Shown piece after piece: positions 44,201-52,072 of a DNA stretch of 64,000 nt. Source of the stretch: Promicromonospora sp. MEB111 (GTDB lineage: Bacteria > Actinomycetota > Actinomycetes > Actinomycetales > Cellulomonadaceae); the NCBI RefSeq assembly GCF_030209445.1, contig NZ_JARVSD010000004.1, positions 186,001 to 250,000 on the forward strand, read 5' to 3'. Position 1 is the first letter of the stretch. Each line of letters opens with the position of its first letter. The notes beneath the pieces are model-generated. The model saw only the letters and a list, made by a program, of their open reading frames with translations, did not search any database and had not been told where the DNA came from. A program made the position numbers and the translations under genes.

Positions 44201-44484
44201 CGCCCGCCGCCGACGTCCCGGCGGGGGCCGTGCTGCGCGCCTACACGCTGGTCTCGGGCCCGTCGGCCGAGCCGTCGACCGTCGAGGCGGCGTCCGGACC
44301 GCCGTCGGCCTGGCGTCTGGTCGGGGCCGACGGGCGGGTGCTCGACGAGCGGTCCGGCGAGGAGTGGCGCTGGCCGAGCCAGCTCCGCCCCTTCGTGCTC
44401 GACGAGCCCGTGCCGCTCGCGGACCTCCGCCTGGAGCTGGCCGGACCCGGTGCCCTCGCCCAGATCGAGCTCCTCCTGGGCTGA
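41242..44484 (+). CDS. GH92 alpha-1,2-mannosidase
   Basis: This is a 1080-residue family 92 exo-mannosidase, a calcium-dependent inverting enzyme class. The core motifs are present: FWDTYRTCWPAYALLYPE, WSSPGYADLMTGTSSDVAFAD and the strongly conserved GDEDNGEMSAWYVLAALG. The last 140 residues look like a galactose-binding beta-sandwich. No signal peptide is seen. The N-terminus begins in what is normally the middle of the first beta-sandwich domain of larger GH92 proteins, and neither ATG (41242 or 41254) has a ribosome site. The 5' end may therefore be altered by the deletion that left the LacI remnant. Confidence 0.92.
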   Translation: MGPRMTGPAHVPAGRPGAGLTSEHATRVRHHGEGRTVLLDGLDVPVEAGTELRYAVLPVLDEKLTYRSTYVALDLQLDDGTWLSATDPGRDLLDQHGMPATAVGQGEARILVPDHWNLVRVDLGPVAQALPGRRVRAAAAVTAAPDGGRTEAWFDTVSVGRRAPRTVTGRTDLVDTRRGTHSSGAYSRGNNVPAAAVPNGFTMWVPLTDAASERWLYSWAAHNGPDNRPRLQGVGISHEPSPWMGDRDQLAFHLVPAGPGDDVPDAGLDARSIGFSHDDETARPHRYDVGLDGGARVAVAASDHGGVLRLTFPDGATTGHLLIDAVGDSGADGAPVSVTVHDDGTLTGWSDHGSPLSVGRSRMYVVGRISRPVLRTGRARGRDHATYATVALDAGADAAGADAGRTVEVRVATSYISEELAWLALEREVSGTFDEVADAARAQWEERLGVLDVEGAAEEQRVTLYSNLYRLNLYPSSYTEVGADGAPVHASPVLDGAPVVPGEMFVNHGFWDTYRTCWPAYALLYPEVAARLADGFVQQYREGGWVARWSSPGYADLMTGTSSDVAFADLYLRGVDLPDPLATYDAGLRNATALPTRSGVGRKGQEFALTHGWVPRDVEESVSWSLEGYINDAGLARMAQALADAPGTPEGRRRALRDEAAYLRQSALGYVHLFDAATGFFRGRARDGELDPAPFDPDAWGGDYTESDAWNFLFHPVHDGAGLAALHGGRAGLERLLERFFAAPERADKPGSYGSAIHEMFEARDVRLGQLGQSNQVSHHIAWTWSVAGRPDRTQEVVREILTRLWTGNDIGQGYHGDEDNGEMSAWYVLAALGLYPLEIGSPRWAVTSPLFERAVVHRPDGDLVIEAPGAAGRQYVAGLDVTGGDGAAGVDAAAARAVTTPSIDNGDLVGGATLRFALSETPTRWGVPADGDEAGARAAEVGAGLASDRPWRRADGAWRGAEGSLPHLTDGDLTTSAVVDGTLDWAPAADVPAGAVLRAYTLVSGPSAEPSTVEAASGPPSAWRLVGADGRVLDERSGEEWRWPSQLRPFVLDEPVPLADLRLELAGPGALAQIELLLG

Positions 44485-44601
44485 CCCGCACGTCCAGGCG
44501 CCGGCGCTGCGAACGGCACCTCCCTCGTGCCGGTCGCGCAGCGTCCGGGACGGCGGTTCCCGGCTGCGCCCTCAGGGCCTTGGCGAGACCGTGGTCCCGG
44601 G

Positions 44602-44653
44602 ATGTGAGATCTGGGCAAGGATCATTGACTTCTATGGGTTCCATTCGTATCTT
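44602..44653 (+). promoter_or_regulatory. Promoter of the SAM-riboswitch sulfur operon with upstream box
   Basis: TTGACT (44625-44630) and TATCTT (44648-44653) have a perfect 17-base spacer. The 11-mer ATGTGAGATCT (44602-44612) lies 12 bases upstream of the -35. The same 11-mer stands 13 bases upstream of the -35 of LLM-3, so it is a candidate activator or repressor site. Bases 44485-44601 before it show nothing recognisable. Confidence 0.65.
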
Positions 44654-44710
44654 CTGTGACATCGAGACCAACCGCACTTATCCGATCGGAGAGATGTAGA
44701 AAGCCTCGAC

Positions 44711-44795
44711 AGGTCATGAGTTCCGACGCGAAGCCCCGGCTGGTCGGACGGCAACCCCCCGCGCGGGTGGGTGCCCCGGGTGAGGACCAGGTCCA
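44711..44795 (+). promoter_or_regulatory. SAM-IV riboswitch
   Basis: The sequence follows the SAM-IV consensus. It has GGTCATGAG at the start and a perfect stem TCCGAC/GTCGGA (44722-44727 with 44743-44748) enclosing AAGCCCCGGC. The conserved GGCAACC comes next, a C-rich/G-rich hairpin, and GTGCCCCGGGTGAGGACC closing the outer stem (44712-44715 with 44785-44788). S-adenosylmethionine binding by this class switches off downstream genes. The operon below contains an O-acetylhomoserine sulfhydrylase-type gene, a fitting target. The class boundary with the SAM-I/IV variant is less certain than the SAM call itself. Confidence 0.9.
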
Positions 44796-44858
44796 CCGCC
44801 GCCGGCGGATGACAACACGCGTCGCTCGCCGATGGGCGAGCAGGTGAGGAGAACGACG

Positions 44859-44972
44859 ATGACCCGGAGCGCTGCCCCCGCCGTCCACGTGTCCCTGCCG
44901 TCCCGGAACGTCTCCGCGCGGGCTGGTGCTGCCCCGCGCGAGGAGATGTGTTGTCACTGTTCCTGTCGCTGA
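44859..44972 (+). CDS. Cysteine-rich leader peptide
   Basis: This short frame encodes 37 residues and ends in MCCHCSCR, with four cysteines in the last seven positions. It has an excellent ribosome site (GAGGAG, 44846-44851) and lies 64 bases after the riboswitch. Leader peptides with a C-terminal Cys run before sulfur genes are known in Actinobacteria to sense cysteine supply by ribosome stalling. Its final bases CTGTCGC can pair with three GCGACAG repeats just downstream. The peptide itself is probably without other function. Confidence 0.82.
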   Translation: MTRSAAPAVHVSLPSRNVSARAGAAPREEMCCHCSCR

Positions 44973-44974
44973 CG

Positions 44975-45016
44975 GCGACAGGCTGATCGCGACAGCCTGA
45001 CCGCGACAGCCCCGAC
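44975..45016 (+). repeat. Three 14-bp tandem repeats complementary to the leader end
   Basis: Units start at 44975, 44989 and 45003, each beginning GCGACAG. All three can pair with CTGTCGC at 44963-44969, which includes the last leader codons. An internal stem CAGGCTG/CAGCCTG (44979-44985 with 44993-44999) competes with this. The layout suits an attenuator with alternative structures. Confidence 0.7.
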
Positions 45017-45243
45017 GCGCCGACCGGCCGCAGCCAGCCACCGGTCCGCCGCCCGGAACTCCTCTCGGCGTCGCACGCCGAGCCCCGGCCGTAACCGGCC
45101 CTCACGTCCCTGACCGGACGCCTCACTCCTGCCCTCCGGCAGCCACGCTCCCGGGTGACCCCTGGACGCCGTCGTGCACCTGCGCGCGGCGGCCGGGTCC
45201 TCCGGGCGCCGTCGCGCCGCCGCAGCCCGAACGGAGCACCGCC
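45017..45243 (+). other. Untranslated stretch before LLM-1
   Basis: 227 GC-rich bases carry no convincing gene. Short stems such as CGGCGTCGCACGCCG (about 45068-45082) and CCGGCCGTAACCGGCC (about 45085-45100) may be the terminator or anti-terminator part of the leader control. GGAGCAC just before 45244 is the ribosome site of LLM-1. Confidence 0.4.
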
Positions 45244-46407
45244 GTGCCGTACCCGTCGCAGCCCACGTCCCTCTCCTCGACCGCCCTCTCCACCCGTCCC
45301 GTCGTGCTCGGCGTGGACCTCACCTCCGCCGGCGCCCGCCCGGGCGCCCACCGGGCCCGCGGCCCGGTCGCGCCGCGCCCGTTCGACGGCGAGCGGTTCC
45401 TGCACCTCATGCGGACCGCCGACCGTGGACTGCTCGACTTCGTCAGCCTCGACGAGGGCTTTCTGCTCCACCCCGGCCGCAGCCAGGTCACCGGACGGCT
45501 GGACACGGCCGTCGCCGCGGCCCGGGCCGCCCGGGTCACCGCGGGGATCGGGCTGGTCGCTGCCGTCGACACGGTGCACGTCGAGGCGGCCCACGCCGCC
45601 GTCGCGCTGAGCAGCATCGACCGCGCGAGCAGCGGCCGGGCCGGCTGGCAGGCCGTGCGGCAGGGCACGCTCCCCGAGCCCGACGAGGCCTGGGCGACGC
45701 GCGTCGAGCTGGGCATCCGGTCGGTGACGCAGGTGTGGACGGGCCGTCCCGGCAGCGGGGCGGGCGCGGTCGAGCTCGACGCCGAGGGCCGGTTCCGGGT
45801 GGACCACGACGGCATCCGGTTCGCCGTCCGCGGCCGCCCGGCCGGCGGCGGCGACGCGCTGCCGCAGGTGCCCCCGCCGGTCGTCGTGCGAGTGCGTTCC
45901 GAGGCCAGCGCGGCGCTGGCCGGCCGCACCGCCGACGTCGCGCGGATCACCGTCACCGACGCCGCGCACGCGGTGCGGCTGCGCCGGCTCGTGCGGGACG
46001 CCGCGCTGTCCGCCGGGCGCGACCCCGAGGAGCTGCGCGTGCTCGCCGAGGTCTACGTGGTGCTCGCGGCGGAGCGGGCCAGCGCCCGGGCCCGGCTGGA
46101 GCTCGTCGAGGCGCTGGAGGGCACGGCGGCCATGGGCGACGGGCTGGTCGTCGCCGACACGCCGGACGAGCTCGCCACCCTGATCGCCGACTGGACCACC
46201 GTCGGCGCCGTCGACGGGTTCCTGCTGCGGCCGTCCTCGCTCAGCTCCGACCTCGACGCGATCACCGACCACCTGGTCCCCGCGCTCCAGCAGGCGGGCC
46301 TGTTCCGCACGGAGCGGACGGCGACCACGCTGCGCGGCTCGCTCGGGCTGTCCGACGTCGAGGCGGCCGAGCGGGGGCTGCCCACGGGCCGGCTGCTGAG
46401 CGCCTGA
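45244..46407 (+). CDS. LLM-1: short luciferase-like flavin monooxygenase
   Basis: This 387-residue protein of the luciferase-like monooxygenase superfamily is the first gene behind the SAM riboswitch and Cys leader. It has RTADRGLLDFVSLDEGF near the N-terminus, SSGRAGWQAVRQG, where longer relatives have LSGGRxxWNVV, and a typical C-terminal GAVDGFLLRP plus LRGSLGL end. It belongs to the same short group as LLM-3 and LLM-6, and is the most diverged of them. Reduced FMN is the expected cofactor and an organosulfur compound the likely substrate, both by inference from context. The start is GTG 45244. Confidence 0.85.
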   Translation: MPYPSQPTSLSSTALSTRPVVLGVDLTSAGARPGAHRARGPVAPRPFDGERFLHLMRTADRGLLDFVSLDEGFLLHPGRSQVTGRLDTAVAAARAARVTAGIGLVAAVDTVHVEAAHAAVALSSIDRASSGRAGWQAVRQGTLPEPDEAWATRVELGIRSVTQVWTGRPGSGAGAVELDAEGRFRVDHDGIRFAVRGRPAGGGDALPQVPPPVVVRVRSEASAALAGRTADVARITVTDAAHAVRLRRLVRDAALSAGRDPEELRVLAEVYVVLAAERASARARLELVEALEGTAAMGDGLVVADTPDELATLIADWTTVGAVDGFLLRPSSLSSDLDAITDHLVPALQQAGLFRTERTATTLRGSLGLSDVEAAERGLPTGRLLSA

Positions 46408-46467: not shown

Positions 46468-46821
46468 ATGACCACCCCTGAGCTGCAGACCCCCGACGCC
46501 GCGAGCGCCAAGGTCGCCGGCGGCGCCCTGCTGATCGACGTCCGCTCGGCCGCGGGCCGGGCCTCGGCGGGCGAGATCCCGGGCGCCACGCTCGCGGACC
46601 GCGACAACCTGGACGCGCTGTTCGGGCCGTCCGACAACCCCGCGATCACCCTCGACACTCCCGTCGTGATCGTGTGCGGCTCGATCAACGGCTCCGGCCC
46701 GGTCGCGGAGGCGCTCGCGGCCCGCGGCTACACCGACGTCTCGCACGTCGACGGCGGGTTCCCCGCCTGGAAGGAGGCCGGGCTGCCCGCGACGGAGGCC
46801 GAGCCGAGCGCGGCGCCATGA
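46468..46821 (+). CDS. Rhodanese-like sulfurtransferase
   Basis: This 117-residue single-domain rhodanese has LLIDVRSAAGR, with the CDC25-like entry motif, and the persulfide-forming Cys70 in VVIVCGSINGSG, followed by HVDGGFPAWKEAGLP. The active loop CGSINGS is less basic than the usual CRxGxR, so thiosulfate may not be its substrate. It could carry sulfur released by the neighbouring monooxygenases. The ATG at 46468 follows GGAGGAGA; the GTG at 46453 would lack a site. It overlaps the next gene by four bases (ATGA). Confidence 0.88.
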   Translation: MTTPELQTPDAASAKVAGGALLIDVRSAAGRASAGEIPGATLADRDNLDALFGPSDNPAITLDTPVVIVCGSINGSGPVAEALAARGYTDVSHVDGGFPAWKEAGLPATEAEPSAAP

Positions 46822-48206
46822 CCGGCTTCGCCACCCGGCAGGTGCACGCGCGCAGCGCGGGACGGGACGACGCCGGGCGCGCCACCGGGGCGCCCGACGC
46901 CGCGCCGTCGGCGCGCGTGGTCCCGCGTGCCACGCCCGTCTACCTGACCGCCGGGTTCGAGTTCGAGGAGTGGGAGCAGGCGGCCGGGCACTTCGGCGCC
47001 GGCGAGGGCTTCGCCTACACGCGTACCGGCAACCCGACCACGGCCGCCGTCGAGCAGCGGATAGCCGCCCTGGAGGGCGGTTCCGACGCCCTGTTCCTGG
47101 CCAGCGGGCAGGCGGCCGTCACGGTCGCCCTGCTCGGCCTGGTCCAGGCCGGGCAGCGCGTGCTCGCCGCGTCCAGCATCTACGAGGGCACGCGCGGTCT
47201 GCTCCTGGAGAACCTGCCGCGCCTCGGCATCGAGGCCGACTTCGTGGACGACGCCGCCGACCCGGCCGCCTGGGAGCGCGCGATCCGCCCCGAGACGCGC
47301 GTGCTGTTCCTGGAGTCCATCCCGAACGCGCGCAACGACCTGCCCGACCTCGCGGCCGTGGCCGACGTCGCGCACGCCCACGGGCTGGTGCTCGTCGTGG
47401 ACAACACCCTGGCCACGCCCTACCTGCTGCGGCCCGTCGAGCACGGCGCCGACGTCGTGGTGCACTCCGCCAGCAAGTTCCTCGCGGGGCACGGCTCGGT
47501 GCTGGGCGGCGTCGTCGTCGACTCCGGGACGTTCGACGCGCGGGCCTCGGGCGCGCTGTACCCGCACCTGGTCGCGCCCTCGCGCACGGGCGGGCCGAGC
47601 GTGGCCGACCGGCACGGCGGCAACGCGCGCCTGGCGTACCTGCGCGAGACCGTGGCGCCGCGGTTCGGCCCGACGCCGTCGCCGCTCAACGCGTTCCTCG
47701 TGGGCCAGGGCATCGAGACCCTGTCGCTGCGGGTGGCGCGGCAGAGCGCCGCGGCGCTGGAGGTCGCGCGCTGGCTGGCGTTCCGGCCGGAGGTGGCGTC
47801 GGTGGACTACTCGGGGCTCGACTCCAGCCCGTCGCACGCGCTGGCCAAGCGGTACCTGCCGGACGGCCAGGGCTCCGTCTTCACCTTCACGCTGCACGGC
47901 GGCGCCCCCGCGGCACGGGCGTTGGTCGAGGCCGTCCAGGTCTTCACGCACATGACCCACATCGGCGACGTGCGCTCGCTCGTGCTGCACCCCGCGAGCA
48001 CCAGCCACGTGCTGCGCACCCCTGCCGAGCGGGCCGCCGCGGGCATCCACCCGGGCACCCTGCGGCTGTCCGTCGGCATCGAGGACCTGCCCGACCTGAT
48101 CGCCGACCTCGACCGCGGGCTCGCGTCCGCCCGCGCCGCCGCCGAGGCGGACGCCGGCACCCCCGCGGACGCCGGCACCAGCACCACACGCAAGGAGACA
48201 CCATGA
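46818..48206 (+). CDS. O-acetylhomoserine sulfhydrylase-type PLP enzyme (Cys/Met family)
   Basis: This 462-residue enzyme belongs to the gamma-family of PLP-dependent sulfur amino acid enzymes. The N-terminal TPVYLTAGFEFEEWEQAAGHF, YTRTGNPTTAAVEQ, DNTLATPYLLRP and the PLP lysine in VHSASKFLAGHG are clear. It is most like MetY, which makes homocysteine from O-acetylhomoserine and sulfide, but cystathionine synthase or lyase activity is possible. Placed between rhodanese and LLM-2 with ATGA overlaps on both sides, it would fix sulfur released by the operon. SAM-riboswitch control fits a methionine-pathway enzyme. Confidence 0.9.
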   Translation: MTGFATRQVHARSAGRDDAGRATGAPDAAPSARVVPRATPVYLTAGFEFEEWEQAAGHFGAGEGFAYTRTGNPTTAAVEQRIAALEGGSDALFLASGQAAVTVALLGLVQAGQRVLAASSIYEGTRGLLLENLPRLGIEADFVDDAADPAAWERAIRPETRVLFLESIPNARNDLPDLAAVADVAHAHGLVLVVDNTLATPYLLRPVEHGADVVVHSASKFLAGHGSVLGGVVVDSGTFDARASGALYPHLVAPSRTGGPSVADRHGGNARLAYLRETVAPRFGPTPSPLNAFLVGQGIETLSLRVARQSAAALEVARWLAFRPEVASVDYSGLDSSPSHALAKRYLPDGQGSVFTFTLHGGAPAARALVEAVQVFTHMTHIGDVRSLVLHPASTSHVLRTPAERAAAGIHPGTLRLSVGIEDLPDLIADLDRGLASARAAAEADAGTPADAGTSTTRKETP

Positions 48207-49555
48207 CCCGCCAGCAGCACCTCGGCTGGTTCCTGGCCCGCGGCTTCGGGCCGCACGGCTGGGGCCACGACTACCTGGACTGGAACTACGACTGGACCCG
48301 GCCCGACCTCTACGTGGAGTCCGCCCGCGCCCTGGAGCAGGCGGGCGTCGACCTGCTGATCATCGAGGACGCTCCGTCGCTCGGCAGCCCCGAGACCATC
48401 GACCTGCGCGTGCGACAGGCGTTCGGCGGTCCCAAGCACGACCCGCTGCTGCTGGCCCCGTACCTGTTCGCGGCGACGCAGCACCTCGGTGTCGTGCCGA
48501 CGGTCAACCCGGCCGCCGTGCTGCCCTACACCGGGGCGCGGCAGCTCGCGACGCTCCAGCACCTGTCGGGCGGGCGGTTCGGGCTCAACCTGGTGACCGA
48601 CACGGGCAGCGCGCGCCACTTCTCGGACGCGCCGCCGCTCGGGCACGACGCCGCGTACGACCGCGCGGAGGAGTGGCTCGACGGCGTCCGCTCGCTGTGG
48701 CGGTCCTGGGACGACGGTGCGCTGATCGCCGACCCGGGCGCCGTCGGGCCCGGCGGCGCCCGGACCGGGGGCCGGTACGCCGACGGGCGCCTGCTGCGCC
48801 CGGTGCGGCACCGGGGCGAGCACTACGCGTTCGACGGCCCGCTCAACGCCCTCCCGTTCGACGGCGGGGCCGACGGCGAGCCCGTGATCGTCTCGCCCGG
48901 CGGCTCGGGCCGGGGGCTGGCGTTCGCCGGCGCGAACAGCGACGTCCAGCTCGCGCTCGCGCCCCTGACGGAGCGCAGCGTGCGCGAGTACCGGGCCAGG
49001 GTGCACACCGCGGCCCGTGCGTCCGGCCGAGCGCTGGAGCACGTCAAGGTGCTGTTCGCTGTTCGGCCCCTGCTGGTCTCCAGCCCGCAGGAGGCCGACC
49101 GGCTGGTGGCGGCGTCGGCGAACCCGGACGACGGCACGCTGCTGCGCATCGCCGAGCAGCAGTCGAGCGACCTGGAGACCGACCTGACGGCGCTCGACCT
49201 CGACAAGCCGCTGCCCACGGGCCTGTTCGGCGACCACGTCTCGCACGGCTCGATCAAGCGCCTGGTGGGCGACCACGACCTCGCCACCACGCCGCTGCGC
49301 GTGCTGCTCGGCGGGCTCGCCCGCCTGGGCCGCATCGCCGACCGCTCCGGCTGGGTGGGCACCGCCGGCGAGCTCGCCGACCTCATCGAGGAGCTGGGGG
49401 AGTGGGGCAACGACGGCGTGCTGCTGTGGGGCGACCTGCACCCCGTCACCGTGCACCGCACGCTCGACGAGCTGGTCCCGATCCTGCGGCGCCGCGGCAT
49501 CCTGCGCACCGAGTGGGCCGACGGCGGCCTGCGCGCCAACCTGCGGGCGTTCTGA
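48203..49555 (+). CDS. LLM-2: long NtaA/SnaA/DszA-type monooxygenase
   Basis: This is a 450-residue flavin-dependent monooxygenase of the NtaA/SnaA/DszA group. ARALEQAGVDLLIIEDA, LSGGRFGLNLVTDTG and NDGVLLWGDLHP mark the barrel, and the typical C-terminal VPILRRRGILRTEW is present. Group members use reduced FMN from a partner reductase to cleave C-S or C-N bonds. No such reductase is encoded here. It overlaps the sulfhydrylase gene by four bases. Together with LLM-1 it repeats the short-then-long pattern seen twice more in this island. Confidence 0.88.
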   Translation: MTRQQHLGWFLARGFGPHGWGHDYLDWNYDWTRPDLYVESARALEQAGVDLLIIEDAPSLGSPETIDLRVRQAFGGPKHDPLLLAPYLFAATQHLGVVPTVNPAAVLPYTGARQLATLQHLSGGRFGLNLVTDTGSARHFSDAPPLGHDAAYDRAEEWLDGVRSLWRSWDDGALIADPGAVGPGGARTGGRYADGRLLRPVRHRGEHYAFDGPLNALPFDGGADGEPVIVSPGGSGRGLAFAGANSDVQLALAPLTERSVREYRARVHTAARASGRALEHVKVLFAVRPLLVSSPQEADRLVAASANPDDGTLLRIAEQQSSDLETDLTALDLDKPLPTGLFGDHVSHGSIKRLVGDHDLATTPLRVLLGGLARLGRIADRSGWVGTAGELADLIEELGEWGNDGVLLWGDLHPVTVHRTLDELVPILRRRGILRTEWADGGLRANLRAF

Positions 49556-49587: not shown

Positions 49588-50106
49588 TTGCCGGTGATCG
49601 TCTCCGACCCGACCTGGGTCGCCACCACCTGGGACGACCCGCGCGCCGCCGCGCTGCGCGAGGCCATGACCGACGACCTCGCCCCGCGCTACGCGGACCT
49701 GCGCGAGCAGCGCGCGCGGCTGTTCGCGCCGGCCGAGCCGGGCGGGCTGAGCGCCGTGCCGACGTCGTCCGAGGTGATGGTGACCTGGATCGCCCTGGAC
49801 GGTGTGGAGGCGGTGGCGACCGGATCGCTGCGCCGGCTGGGCGGCACCGCCCTCCACCCCGAGGTGACCCATGAGGTCAAGCGCATGTTCGTGCGGCCCA
49901 CGCACCGCCGCCGAGGGCTGGCGGCGGGCGTGCTGGCCGCCGTCGAGCGGTCCGCGCTGGACCGGGGGATCGAGGTGCTGCGCCTGCAGACCGGCGTGCG
50001 GCAGCCCGAGGCCGTGGCGCTGTACGAGCGCGAGGGCTGGACTCGGATCGACCCGTACCCGCCGTACCCGGCGGAGTCGAGCATCTGCTTCGAGAAGAGG
50101 CTGTGA
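49588..50106 (+). CDS. GNAT-family N-acetyltransferase
   Basis: This 172-residue acetyltransferase uses acetyl-CoA. The pyrophosphate-binding loop MFVRPTHRRRGLAAGVL and the C-terminal EAVALYEREGWTRI are clear GNAT markers. The start is uncertain: TTG 49588 lies 7 bases after GGAAGGA, while GTG 49594 is 13 bases away, so TTG is chosen. It is the last gene of the riboswitch operon. N-acetylation of cysteine-like or amino-sulfur compounds is a possibility from context only. Confidence 0.82.
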   Translation: MPVIVSDPTWVATTWDDPRAAALREAMTDDLAPRYADLREQRARLFAPAEPGGLSAVPTSSEVMVTWIALDGVEAVATGSLRRLGGTALHPEVTHEVKRMFVRPTHRRRGLAAGVLAAVERSALDRGIEVLRLQTGVRQPEAVALYEREGWTRIDPYPPYPAESSICFEKRL

Positions 50107-50716: not shown

Positions 50717-50768
50717 ATGTGAGATCTCCCGGCCGATCCCTTGGCAGGGCGGCGCACGCACCTATGTT
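50717..50768 (+). promoter_or_regulatory. Promoter of LLM-3/LLM-4 with upstream box
   Basis: TTGGCA (50741-50746) and TATGTT (50763-50768) have a 16-base spacer. ATGTGAGATCT (50717-50727) is identical to the box upstream of the riboswitch operon and lies at nearly the same distance. The -10 TATGTT with 16-base spacer is also found before LLM-6. Confidence 0.6.
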
Positions 50769-50818: not shown

Positions 50819-52072
50819 ATGACGACCGACGGTTCTCTCACCGCACCACAGGATCCTGCCGGAAGAGGGGCGCCCATCGTCGCCGTCGCCCTCGACGGCG
50901 CCGGCTGGCACCCCGCGGCGTGGCGCGAGCCCGGCGCGCGCCCCGAGGCCCTGACCGACGCCGCCTACTGGGTGGGCCTGACCCAGCTCGCCGAGGCCGG
51001 GCTCGTCGACCTCGTGACGTTCGAGGACAGCTTCGGCATCCCCGTCGGCCCCTGGGACGACCCGGCCGCCGACCGGACCGACCGGGTGCGCGTGCGGCTG
51101 GACGCCGAGCTCGTCGCGGCACGCGTGGCCCCCGCGACCCGGCACGTCGGGCTCGTCCCCGTGGTCACGGTGACGCACACCGAGCCGTTCCACGTCGCCA
51201 AGGCGCTGGCCACCCTCGACCACACCAGCCAGGGCCGGGCCGGCTGGCAGGTGCGCGCCTCGCCGTCGGGCACGGAGGCCCGGCTGACCGGCCGCCGCGA
51301 CCTGCCGGAGATCACCGCGGAGGACTACGCGGCGGGCCGCGCCGACGAGCAGGTCGCCGAGCTCTTCGCCGAGGCGGCCGCCGTGGCCGAGACGGTCCGC
51401 GCCCTCTGGGACTCCTGGGAGGACGACGCCGAGATCCGCGACGTCGCCACGCGCCGCTTCATCGACCGCGACAAGGTGCACCGCGTCGACGTGGAGACAC
51501 GGTGGTTCTCCGTGCGCGGCCCGTCCATCACGCCGCGCCCGCCGCAGGGGCAGCCGGTCGTCACCGCGCTCGCGCACGCGACGGTGCCGTACGAGCTGGC
51601 GGCCCGCGTGGCCGACGTCGTCTTCGTGACGCCGCAGGACGACGCGGCGGCGGCCTCGATCCTGGCCGAGGTGCGTGCCGCCGAGGCCCGCGTGGGCCGG
51701 ACCGGCGAGCCGCTGCGCGTGGTGGCCGACCTCGCCGTGGTGCTCGACGCCGACGGGCGGGCGGCGGCCGAGCGCCTGGCGCGCCTGGACGCCTGGGCGG
51801 GTCAGGCCGAGCGGGGCTGGGTCACCGACGCCCGCGTGCTCGCGGGCTCCGCGGCCGACGTCGCCGACGTGGTCGAGGCCTGGACGGGCCTCGGCTACGA
51901 CGGCGTGCGCGTGCGCCCCGCCGTGCTGCCCGACGACCTGGACGCCCTGGTCACGGACGTGCTGCCCGAGCTGCGGCGGCGGGGCCTGGCGCGCACCGCC
52001 TACGACGCCGGCTCGCTGCGGGGGCTGCTGCGCCTGCCGACCGAGGTCCCCAACCGCTTCGCCGCCGTCTGA
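50819..52072 (+). CDS. LLM-3: short luciferase-like flavin monooxygenase
   Basis: This 417-residue luciferase-like monooxygenase is of the short type. TQLAEAGLVDLVTFEDSFG, HTSQGRAGWQVRAS, LWDSWEDDAEIRDVATRR and ITPRPPQGQPVV are shared almost word for word with LLM-6. The end LRGLLRLP is typical. The ATG has GAGGAGC upstream, 44 bases after the predicted transcription start. LLM-4 follows 52 bases later on the same strand. Substrate unknown; an organosulfur compound is inferred from the island. Confidence 0.86.
   Translation: MTTDGSLTAPQDPAGRGAPIVAVALDGAGWHPAAWREPGARPEALTDAAYWVGLTQLAEAGLVDLVTFEDSFGIPVGPWDDPAADRTDRVRVRLDAELVAARVAPATRHVGLVPVVTVTHTEPFHVAKALATLDHTSQGRAGWQVRASPSGTEARLTGRRDLPEITAEDYAAGRADEQVAELFAEAAAVAETVRALWDSWEDDAEIRDVATRRFIDRDKVHRVDVETRWFSVRGPSITPRPPQGQPVVTALAHATVPYELAARVADVVFVTPQDDAAAASILAEVRAAEARVGRTGEPLRVVADLAVVLDADGRAAAERLARLDAWAGQAERGWVTDARVLAGSAADVADVVEAWTGLGYDGVRVRPAVLPDDLDALVTDVLPELRRRGLARTAYDAGSLRGLLRLPTEVPNRFAAV

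Follow-up and report, generated by a model that had tools for sequence, protein, structure and literature searches.

In Promicromonospora sp. MEB111, a SAM-IV riboswitch and a short open reading frame (ORF) that ends in a run of cysteine codons lie in series upstream of an operon headed by LLM-1, a luciferase-like monooxygenase gene. Sequence comparisons indicate that this feature—SAM-IV, leader ORF, LLM-1—is genuine, recurs and is of long standing in the family. The parts are of known kinds, and their arrangement in series, for which we found no description in open-licence papers among the matches listed, would have a plausible two-input logic. We lean towards reading it as a single 5′ leader with two-stage sulfur sensing, in which SAM-IV would control the start of the leader ORF and cysteine-dependent stalling would control the operon.

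Architecture of the leader and operon

The window, by which we mean the whole 64,000-nucleotide stretch analysed, holds these elements upstream of LLM-1 (SD, Shine–Dalgarno sequence):

44625–44653, + strand: sigma-70-like promoter TTGACT-N17-TATCTT (consensus scan; one found, shuffle mean 0.0)
44681–44690, no strand assigned: palindrome TCCGATCGGA in the promoter–aptamer interval (by eye)
44712–44823, + strand: SAM-IV riboswitch aptamer, RF00634 (cmscan and genome search)
44824–44841, + strand: predicted hairpin GCTCGCC-loop-GGCGAGC, from aptamer tail to leader SD
44843–44851, + strand: leader-ORF SD GGTGAGGAG, identical in eight genus loci
44859–44972, + strand: Cys-rich leader ORF, 37 codons, ending MCCHCSCR and stop (SD, Cys and codon bias, recurrence)
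44949–44966, + strand: Cys codon cluster TGT TGT CAC TGT TCC TGT, four TGT immediately 5′ of CGC TGA
44962–44982, + strand: hairpin CCTGTCGC-TGACG-GCGACAGG across the last leader codons and stop (by eye)
44973–45243, + strand: untranslated gap, C-rich and G-poor, without intrinsic terminator (composition, terminator scan)
45231–45236, + strand: LLM-1 SD ACGGAG (GAACGGAG in most of 15 relatives listed)

Like the SAM-IV family as modelled in Rfam, the window aptamer is full length, matching model positions 1–116 in cmscan, and lies above the curated score, with 85.6 bits against a gathering cut-off of 38 (E 7e-14). SAM-IV is the sole Rfam family that reached gathering thresholds when cmscan was run on the whole window, and a genome-level search returned the same aptamer, again with 85.6 bits. 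A first-pass annotation, made from the letters alone, had placed a SAM-IV aptamer at 44711–44795 and named an Rfam covariance-model search as its check; that search bears out the riboswitch and the core of its bounds, and restores a 3′ part that had been left out. By eye, and with the pseudoknot layout taken from PMC6890682, the P3 loop and 3′ tail of the window aptamer show CGCG complementarity. The genome carries a second SAM-IV (L001:1501–1615; G000:C3:238537–238651) of 103.8 bits; the window copy precedes a leader ORF, whereas the second has no such ORF and is followed at once by a gene for a SufS-like cysteine desulfurase.

The aptamer and the leader ORF had been assigned to one predicted transcript, and this stands: a single promoter precedes both, with the transcript 5′ end expected near 44660, and the scan of 44480–45300 found no intrinsic-terminator-like site of the kind that marks a classical attenuator. 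The palindrome between promoter and aptamer, exact by eye in six of eight genus loci, is a possible operator and, if so, a third input; in one locus (L019) it is embedded in a longer inverted repeat. The sequence ATGTGAGATCT occurs both 5′ of the LLM-1 operon (44602–44612) and 5′ of a third LLM gene (50717–50727, for a gene at 50819–52072), which is without SAM-IV. A hairpin between aptamer tail and leader SD is predicted in many loci with an upstream ORF (uORF; by eye, no count), and a comparable one is readable in loci where the riboswitch leads directly to LLM-1 (by eye).

The leader ORF runs from ATG 44859 to a stop at 44970–44972, encodes MTRSAAPAVHVSLPSRNVSARAGAAPREEMCCHCSCR and has AGGTGAGGAG upstream; it begins 35 nt past the aptamer and ends 271 nt ahead of LLM-1. 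An alternative in-frame ATG exists at 44832, but the SD and ATG 44859 are the letters conserved in all eight aligned genus loci. Its own SD and the recurrence of a short ORF in this place at 44 loci (below) confirm the 37-codon frame, ending MCCHCSCR, that had been picked out at 44859–44972. Hairpins at the leader end are alike in several genus loci and not universal (by eye). To the 271-nt gap that follows, no gene could be assigned.

The genes downstream are:

45244–46407, + strand: LLM-1, luciferase-like monooxygenase (Pfam; NtaA/DmoA model below cut-off)
46468–46821, + strand: rhodanese-like protein (Pfam)
46818–48206, + strand: Cys/Met metabolism PLP enzyme (nearest O-acetylhomoserine/O-acetylserine sulfhydrylases, below curated cut-offs)
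48203–49555, + strand: LLM-2, NtaA/DmoA-like monooxygenase (best solved relatives DszA, YtnJ/MoxC)
49588–50106, + strand: GNAT acetyltransferase (Pfam)

Pfam matches above cut-offs agree with the order first read here (LLM-1, rhodanese, sulfhydrylase, LLM-2, GNAT); in NCBIfam both LLMs come nearest to NtaA/DmoA and the PLP enzyme to OAH/OAS sulfhydrylases, with all matches below curated cut-offs. Organosulfur salvage is the likely role of the operon, judging from solved relatives of its LLMs, among which are YtnJ/MoxC and the dibenzothiophene enzyme DszA; its sulfhydrylase-like enzyme belongs where the Cys and Met routes meet. Among the best 80 of 118 relatives, the closest LLM-1 proteins are those of Promicromonospora sp. 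AC04 (91% identity) and P. thailandica (80%).

Conservation in the genus and family

Within the genus, SAM-IV was found in all 13 genomes examined, eight of which have the order SAM-IV, leader ORF, LLM-1. Across the family, 62 of 200 sampled genomes, from 13 of 25 genera, yielded LLM-1, and 64 loci were analysed: 63 LLM-1 places and one below-threshold locus from genome G004. When searched with R1, a model trained on 24 aptamers of the family, 48 of the 64 have a same-strand SAM-IV upstream of LLM-1. When 20 of the 64 were re-tested against Rfam, 17 scored above the cut-off; two (L085, L086) had no SAM-IV by either Rfam or R1, and L071 had one by R1 only.

At 44 of the 48 same-strand loci, in many genera, an SD-led short ORF occupies the leader position, so the order SAM-IV, short ORF, LLM-1 is kept in the survey of relatives that the first-pass annotation had proposed. 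These ORFs have 11–47 codons and are followed by about 50–310 nt before LLM-1; their SD and start stand just 3′ of the aptamer, with the start 17–48 nt past it, which is the position of a riboswitch-controlled uORF. For the remaining four (L064, L068, L069, L071) no short ORF was listed, and LLM-1 itself comes next after the riboswitch. An order kept in so many of the family's genera is no accident of this genome.

Pairs of close SAM-IV aptamers on opposite strands were seen at L073, L068, L107/L155, L161 and L186; at L073 and L155 the divergent gene resembles an NAD(P)H:FMN reductase, judged by eye from the N terminus. Four genus genomes (L022, L023, L025, L026) have divergent SAM-IV matches of 53–70 bits before unrelated genes.

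Cysteine and codon bias of the leader ORFs

The ends of the leaders are strongly enriched in cysteine. At least two Cys fall within the last eight codons of 40 of the 44 leaders, against a mean of 0.47 and a maximum of 3 in 200 dinucleotide shuffles, and at least one in 43 of the 44 (shuffle mean 4.2, maximum 10), in a set of loci that are related and hence not statistically independent. Short ORFs whose Cys codons cluster close to the stop, the mark of an attenuator leader, are in this way present at 40 of the 44. The ORF scored was the first listed at each locus, except that a six-codon frame was skipped at L099 and the second of two same-frame starts was taken at L104. Over the last 24 nt of the 44 leaders, Cys codons number 99, 16 and 1 in the three frames, and 23 leaders share the exact ending TGTTGTCGCTGA; the single-Cys leaders are those of L065, L105 and L117. 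TGT is the rare Cys codon and is preferred in the leaders, with TGT:TGC ratios of 117:32 in the leaders and 25:3 in the genus, as against 7:118 in 31 window ORFs.

A functionless frame that arose by chance has next to no probability. Short frames are indeed common in GC-rich leaders, and on average 14 of 44 shuffled leaders contained an ORF of 50 codons or fewer, but the shuffled maximum of 3 for paired terminal Cys and the recurrence across genera contradict this reading.

In the eight genus loci, leaders vary in length by whole codons between a homologous start and end. Their first 18 codons have no synonymous bias, with 6, 4 and 3 variable columns at the three codon positions in seven sequences; selection seems to act on the Cys tail and not on the remainder of the peptide. 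Another reading is that the ORF encodes a functional small Cys-rich protein, for example a metal or sulfur carrier, placed under SAM control with no regulatory leader involved. The N terminus is conserved within the genus, which speaks for such a protein, yet outside the genus N termini diverge widely and lengths fall to 11 codons (MYRSQCRCCCR, MRRSQTRCCCR), and the rare-codon bias and stop-proximal Cys suit a stalling leader. Nor did leader peptides match any NCBIfam family (window, genus and Cellulosimicrobium peptides tried) or any Pfam family (two peptides tried). We regard a functional protein as very improbable.

Relation to known leaders

No description of a SAM-IV aptamer followed in series by a Cys leader was found in the open-licence literature, among the matches listed. 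Cys leader peptides themselves are described for cys operons of Mycobacterium and Propionibacterium acnes and for cbs of Bifidobacterium (Seliverstov 2005, PMC1262725). Like the window leader, these have a Cys run near the stop and no conserved terminator, and Rho was suggested to act on them; in the available excerpt of that report, however, no riboswitch is mentioned, whereas the window leader has an aptamer just upstream. In M. smegmatis, the Cys codons of polycysteine leaderless uORFs are proposed to stall ribosomes and so control an operon (Canestrari 2020, as summarized in an excerpt of PMC13236596). The window ORF differs in being SD-led, after a riboswitch and about 200 nt from the predicted transcript start, hence not leaderless, and it was unmatched by the Ms4527A and Ms5788A models of that type.

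Control of a small uORF by a riboswitch ahead of an operon has precedents in M. tuberculosis, at the Mbox–rv1805A leader (PMC12810186) and at a B12 leader (PMC11260477), and one Mbox uORF holds rare TGC and TGT codons (PMC12810186). There the ligand is Mg2+ or B12, not SAM, and the sections of these papers at hand do not present the uORFs as amino-acid sensors. The Xanthomonas SAM-I riboswitch also senses uncharged initiator tRNA (PMC7270179), so that, as proposed for the window, one leader integrates SAM and amino-acid supply; unlike in the window, the tRNA binds the RNA directly, and the portion available of that paper mentions no leader ORF. A re-annotation of S. lividans places SAM-IV before a cysteine desulfurase gene and lists eight leader peptides, none of which its accessible text assigns to that gene (PMC8079986).

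Other arrangements among LLM relatives

Named loci were taken from the best 80 of 118 LLM relatives, several of which duplicate genomes of the family survey. Of these 80, SAM-IV lies near LLM in 28. A Cys-containing short ORF accompanies it in 22 of the 28, in Promicromonospora, Xylanimonas, Krasilnikoviella (whose leader has one Cys only), Cellulosimicrobium, Puerhibacterium, Cellulomonas, Sanguibacter, Oerskovia flava and a record labelled ‘Sphaerisporangium’. The locus of that record (L130, Sphaerisporangium cinnabarinum) is nested within Cellulosimicrobium and is probably mislabelled or contaminated.

Three further loci, outside the family, carry a leader of a second type in the same place after SAM-IV: L164 (Humibacillus), L158 (a Frankiales MAG) and L174 (Streptomyces sp. 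SID3212). Their leaders score above the cut-off of NF042934, a ‘putative leader peptide’ with HVDL or HIDL, and their aptamers above that of Rfam. The window leader is unlike NF042934 in sequence: neither its peptide nor three other genus peptides matched that family, and no leader of this type was found elsewhere in the one MEB111 genome, in a search that gave below-cut-off matches in 6 of 14 controls.

The last three of the 28 have SAM-IV without a Cys leader. At L125 and L128, the latter with an aptamer below the Rfam cut-off, LLM starts 33 and 26 nt past the aptamer, respectively; L161 has a 28-codon Cys-free frame, and its LLM starts 101 nt past the aptamer. In a tree of the 80 LLM proteins, L125 and L128 fall inside the Cys-leader clade as sister to L123 (support 96/69, below the tool's starred level), so the leader ORF was probably lost in their lineage; L155, L149 and L128 have long branches that leave details of the tree unsure. 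In the order outside the family, eight of nine SAM-IV loci have a long LLM-like frame 26–74 nt past the aptamer, and L230 alone has a Cys-rich ORF.

Leaders also occur alone. Among the 52 named loci without SAM-IV near LLM, 26 have a short ORF, 19 of HVDL/HIDL type and 7 otherwise Cys-rich (four from Oerskovia, as well as Antribacter, included), counts that come from pattern matches run without shuffle control and, for HVDL, without an SD requirement. Rfam confirmed the absence of SAM-IV in the three leader-only loci submitted (L133, L134, L137). With the riboswitch alone, the leader alone, both in series and two leader families all represented, SAM-IV and leader look like modular sensors.

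A class-wide view of SAM-IV

SAM-IV was present in 262 of the 394 genomes of a class-wide sample. The 89 loci analysed were the 30 with the best scores and a further 59 hand-picked among the matches listed, a set that is not a random sample; a ninetieth, L294, was dropped as it ended with its contig. The first SD-led frame after SAM-IV was short at 36, long at 42 and not found at 11. Of the short ORFs, 12 have Cys within their final eight codons, and 19 contain CGA-ATG (Arg-Met) in frame; this motif is never out of frame there and is absent from the 42 long-ORF loci within the distance searched. Twelve of the 19 (L246, L251, L253, L258, L259, L264, L265, L272, L274, L278, L283, L287) are group f37, whose 12 loci all carry a six-codon ORF reading M(S/N)xRMR; the others are L231, L234, L240, L248, L302, L316 and L319. 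By eye, MSKRMR precedes a cysteine desulfurase-like gene and MTCRMRR an OAH sulfhydrylase-like gene, and these Arg-Met tiny ORFs are possibly a methionine-type leader. Ten of the 36 have neither Cys nor CGA-ATG, and several class short ORFs are probably chance frames. One tentative generalization is that SAM-IV in Actinomycetes may often act not on the enzyme gene itself but by gating a tiny second-sensor leader—for Cys through TGT runs, perhaps for Cys through HVDL-type peptides, perhaps for Met—as a modular two-input gate whose second sensor is swapped between lineages.

A proposed model for two-stage sensing

Position supports the leader ORF's own start codon as the probable target of the riboswitch. 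At L125 and L128, LLM-1 starts 33 and 26 nt past the aptamer, and leader start and gene start are therefore in the same place; as the leader start adjoins the riboswitch, the start codon under control would be the leader's. In the first stage of the model that we favour, SAM-IV would control translation initiation there and not at LLM-1. In the second, when Cys-tRNA is short, a ribosome would stall at the rare TGT run near the leader end, and the stalled ribosome would cause the downstream sulfur-salvage operon to be expressed, through relief of factor-dependent termination or translationally. Expression would then peak under a shortage of both, low SAM allowing the leader to be translated and low cysteine stalling the ribosome. 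From sequence we infer each functional element of this scheme: leader translation, the sign of the SAM response, Cys-dependent stalling, the link from stall to operon and the resulting AND logic.

Folding calculations bear on both stages. Of the idea, present from the first annotation, that one RNA could integrate SAM and cysteine status, the two elements, their order and their conservation are borne out; the AND logic stays a proposal, and SAM-off control at the leader and release of the LLM-1 SD found no support in folding. In 42 of the 44 loci (two were dropped for want of a P1 match), mean openness of the leader SD was 0.71 with P1 forced against 0.48 unconstrained, which argues against a simple SAM-off switch in a calculation that includes neither pseudoknots nor SAM and whose free state is unconstrained, P1 not being forbidden. 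At the 15 of 44 loci with a placeable LLM-1 start, a ribosome footprint at the leader end left the predicted accessibility of the LLM-1 SD unchanged (0.39 vs 0.39). Comparison of five aptamer segments across four locus groups yielded no consistent anti-SD. Marginal excesses over the null came from P2a in the uORF group (4.14, null maximum 4.00) and the P3 loop in the class-long group (5.96, null maximum 5.92); all other segment/group pairs lay within their nulls, and an anti-SD inside the aptamer was rejected. Further points against the model are the lack of synonymous bias in the first 18 codons of the genus leaders, the three leaders with a single Cys and, in the order beyond the family, the long LLM-like frame that follows SAM-IV at eight of nine loci.

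The openness values can also be read with the sign reversed, SAM opening the leader SD so that the Cys leader is engaged at high SAM and cysteine limits the operon mainly under SAM excess. In the examples listed, the leader start region is paired with 5′ aptamer sequence in unconstrained folds and is freed when P1 is forced. Yet the calculation lacks both pseudoknots and the ligand, the P2a–SD complementarity barely exceeds its shuffles and does not exceed them in the class-level groups, and cryo-EM gives the same fold for apo and bound SAM-IV, with base pairing left in place on SAM binding (according to the part of PMC6890682 at hand). A reversed sign therefore seems to us distinctly improbable.

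Unlikely too, if deserving more weight, are two independent controls on one leader. SAM-IV would then act by itself, for instance through premature factor-dependent termination close to the aptamer or 3′ of it, and the Cys leader would work on its own further down; the operon would still sense both signals without any gating of the leader ORF. Before LLM relatives either element is also found singly, no clear platform pairing was found and a premature transcript is reported at a Streptomyces clavuligerus SAM-IV in the accessible text of PMC8269248. Against this, the leader start sits at the gene-start place of the direct loci, which favours direct control, and no intrinsic terminator lies between the window aptamer and leader.

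For the link from a stalled ribosome to the operon within the two-stage model, we prefer, with low confidence, that the stall would relieve factor-dependent termination. We do so because this is the default, because of the mycobacterial precedents (excerpts of PMC12810186 and PMC11260477) and because of the suggestion in the available part of PMC1262725. Rut-like windows were found in 44 of 44 gaps and in 44 of 44 coding controls, and with no discrimination between them the Rho-site rule is uninformative. At 43 of the 44 loci the gap has a stronger C skew than the coding DNA of LLM-1, which is at most suggestive of Rho sites.

If the proposed gating is true, a single RNA leader would compute the states of SAM and Cys-tRNA without a protein regulator, and the start codon controlled by some SAM-IV riboswitches would be that of a small, unannotated ORF instead of the enzyme gene's. 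The natural relatives, with riboswitch only, leader only or both in series before related genes, amount to a ready set of control constructs.
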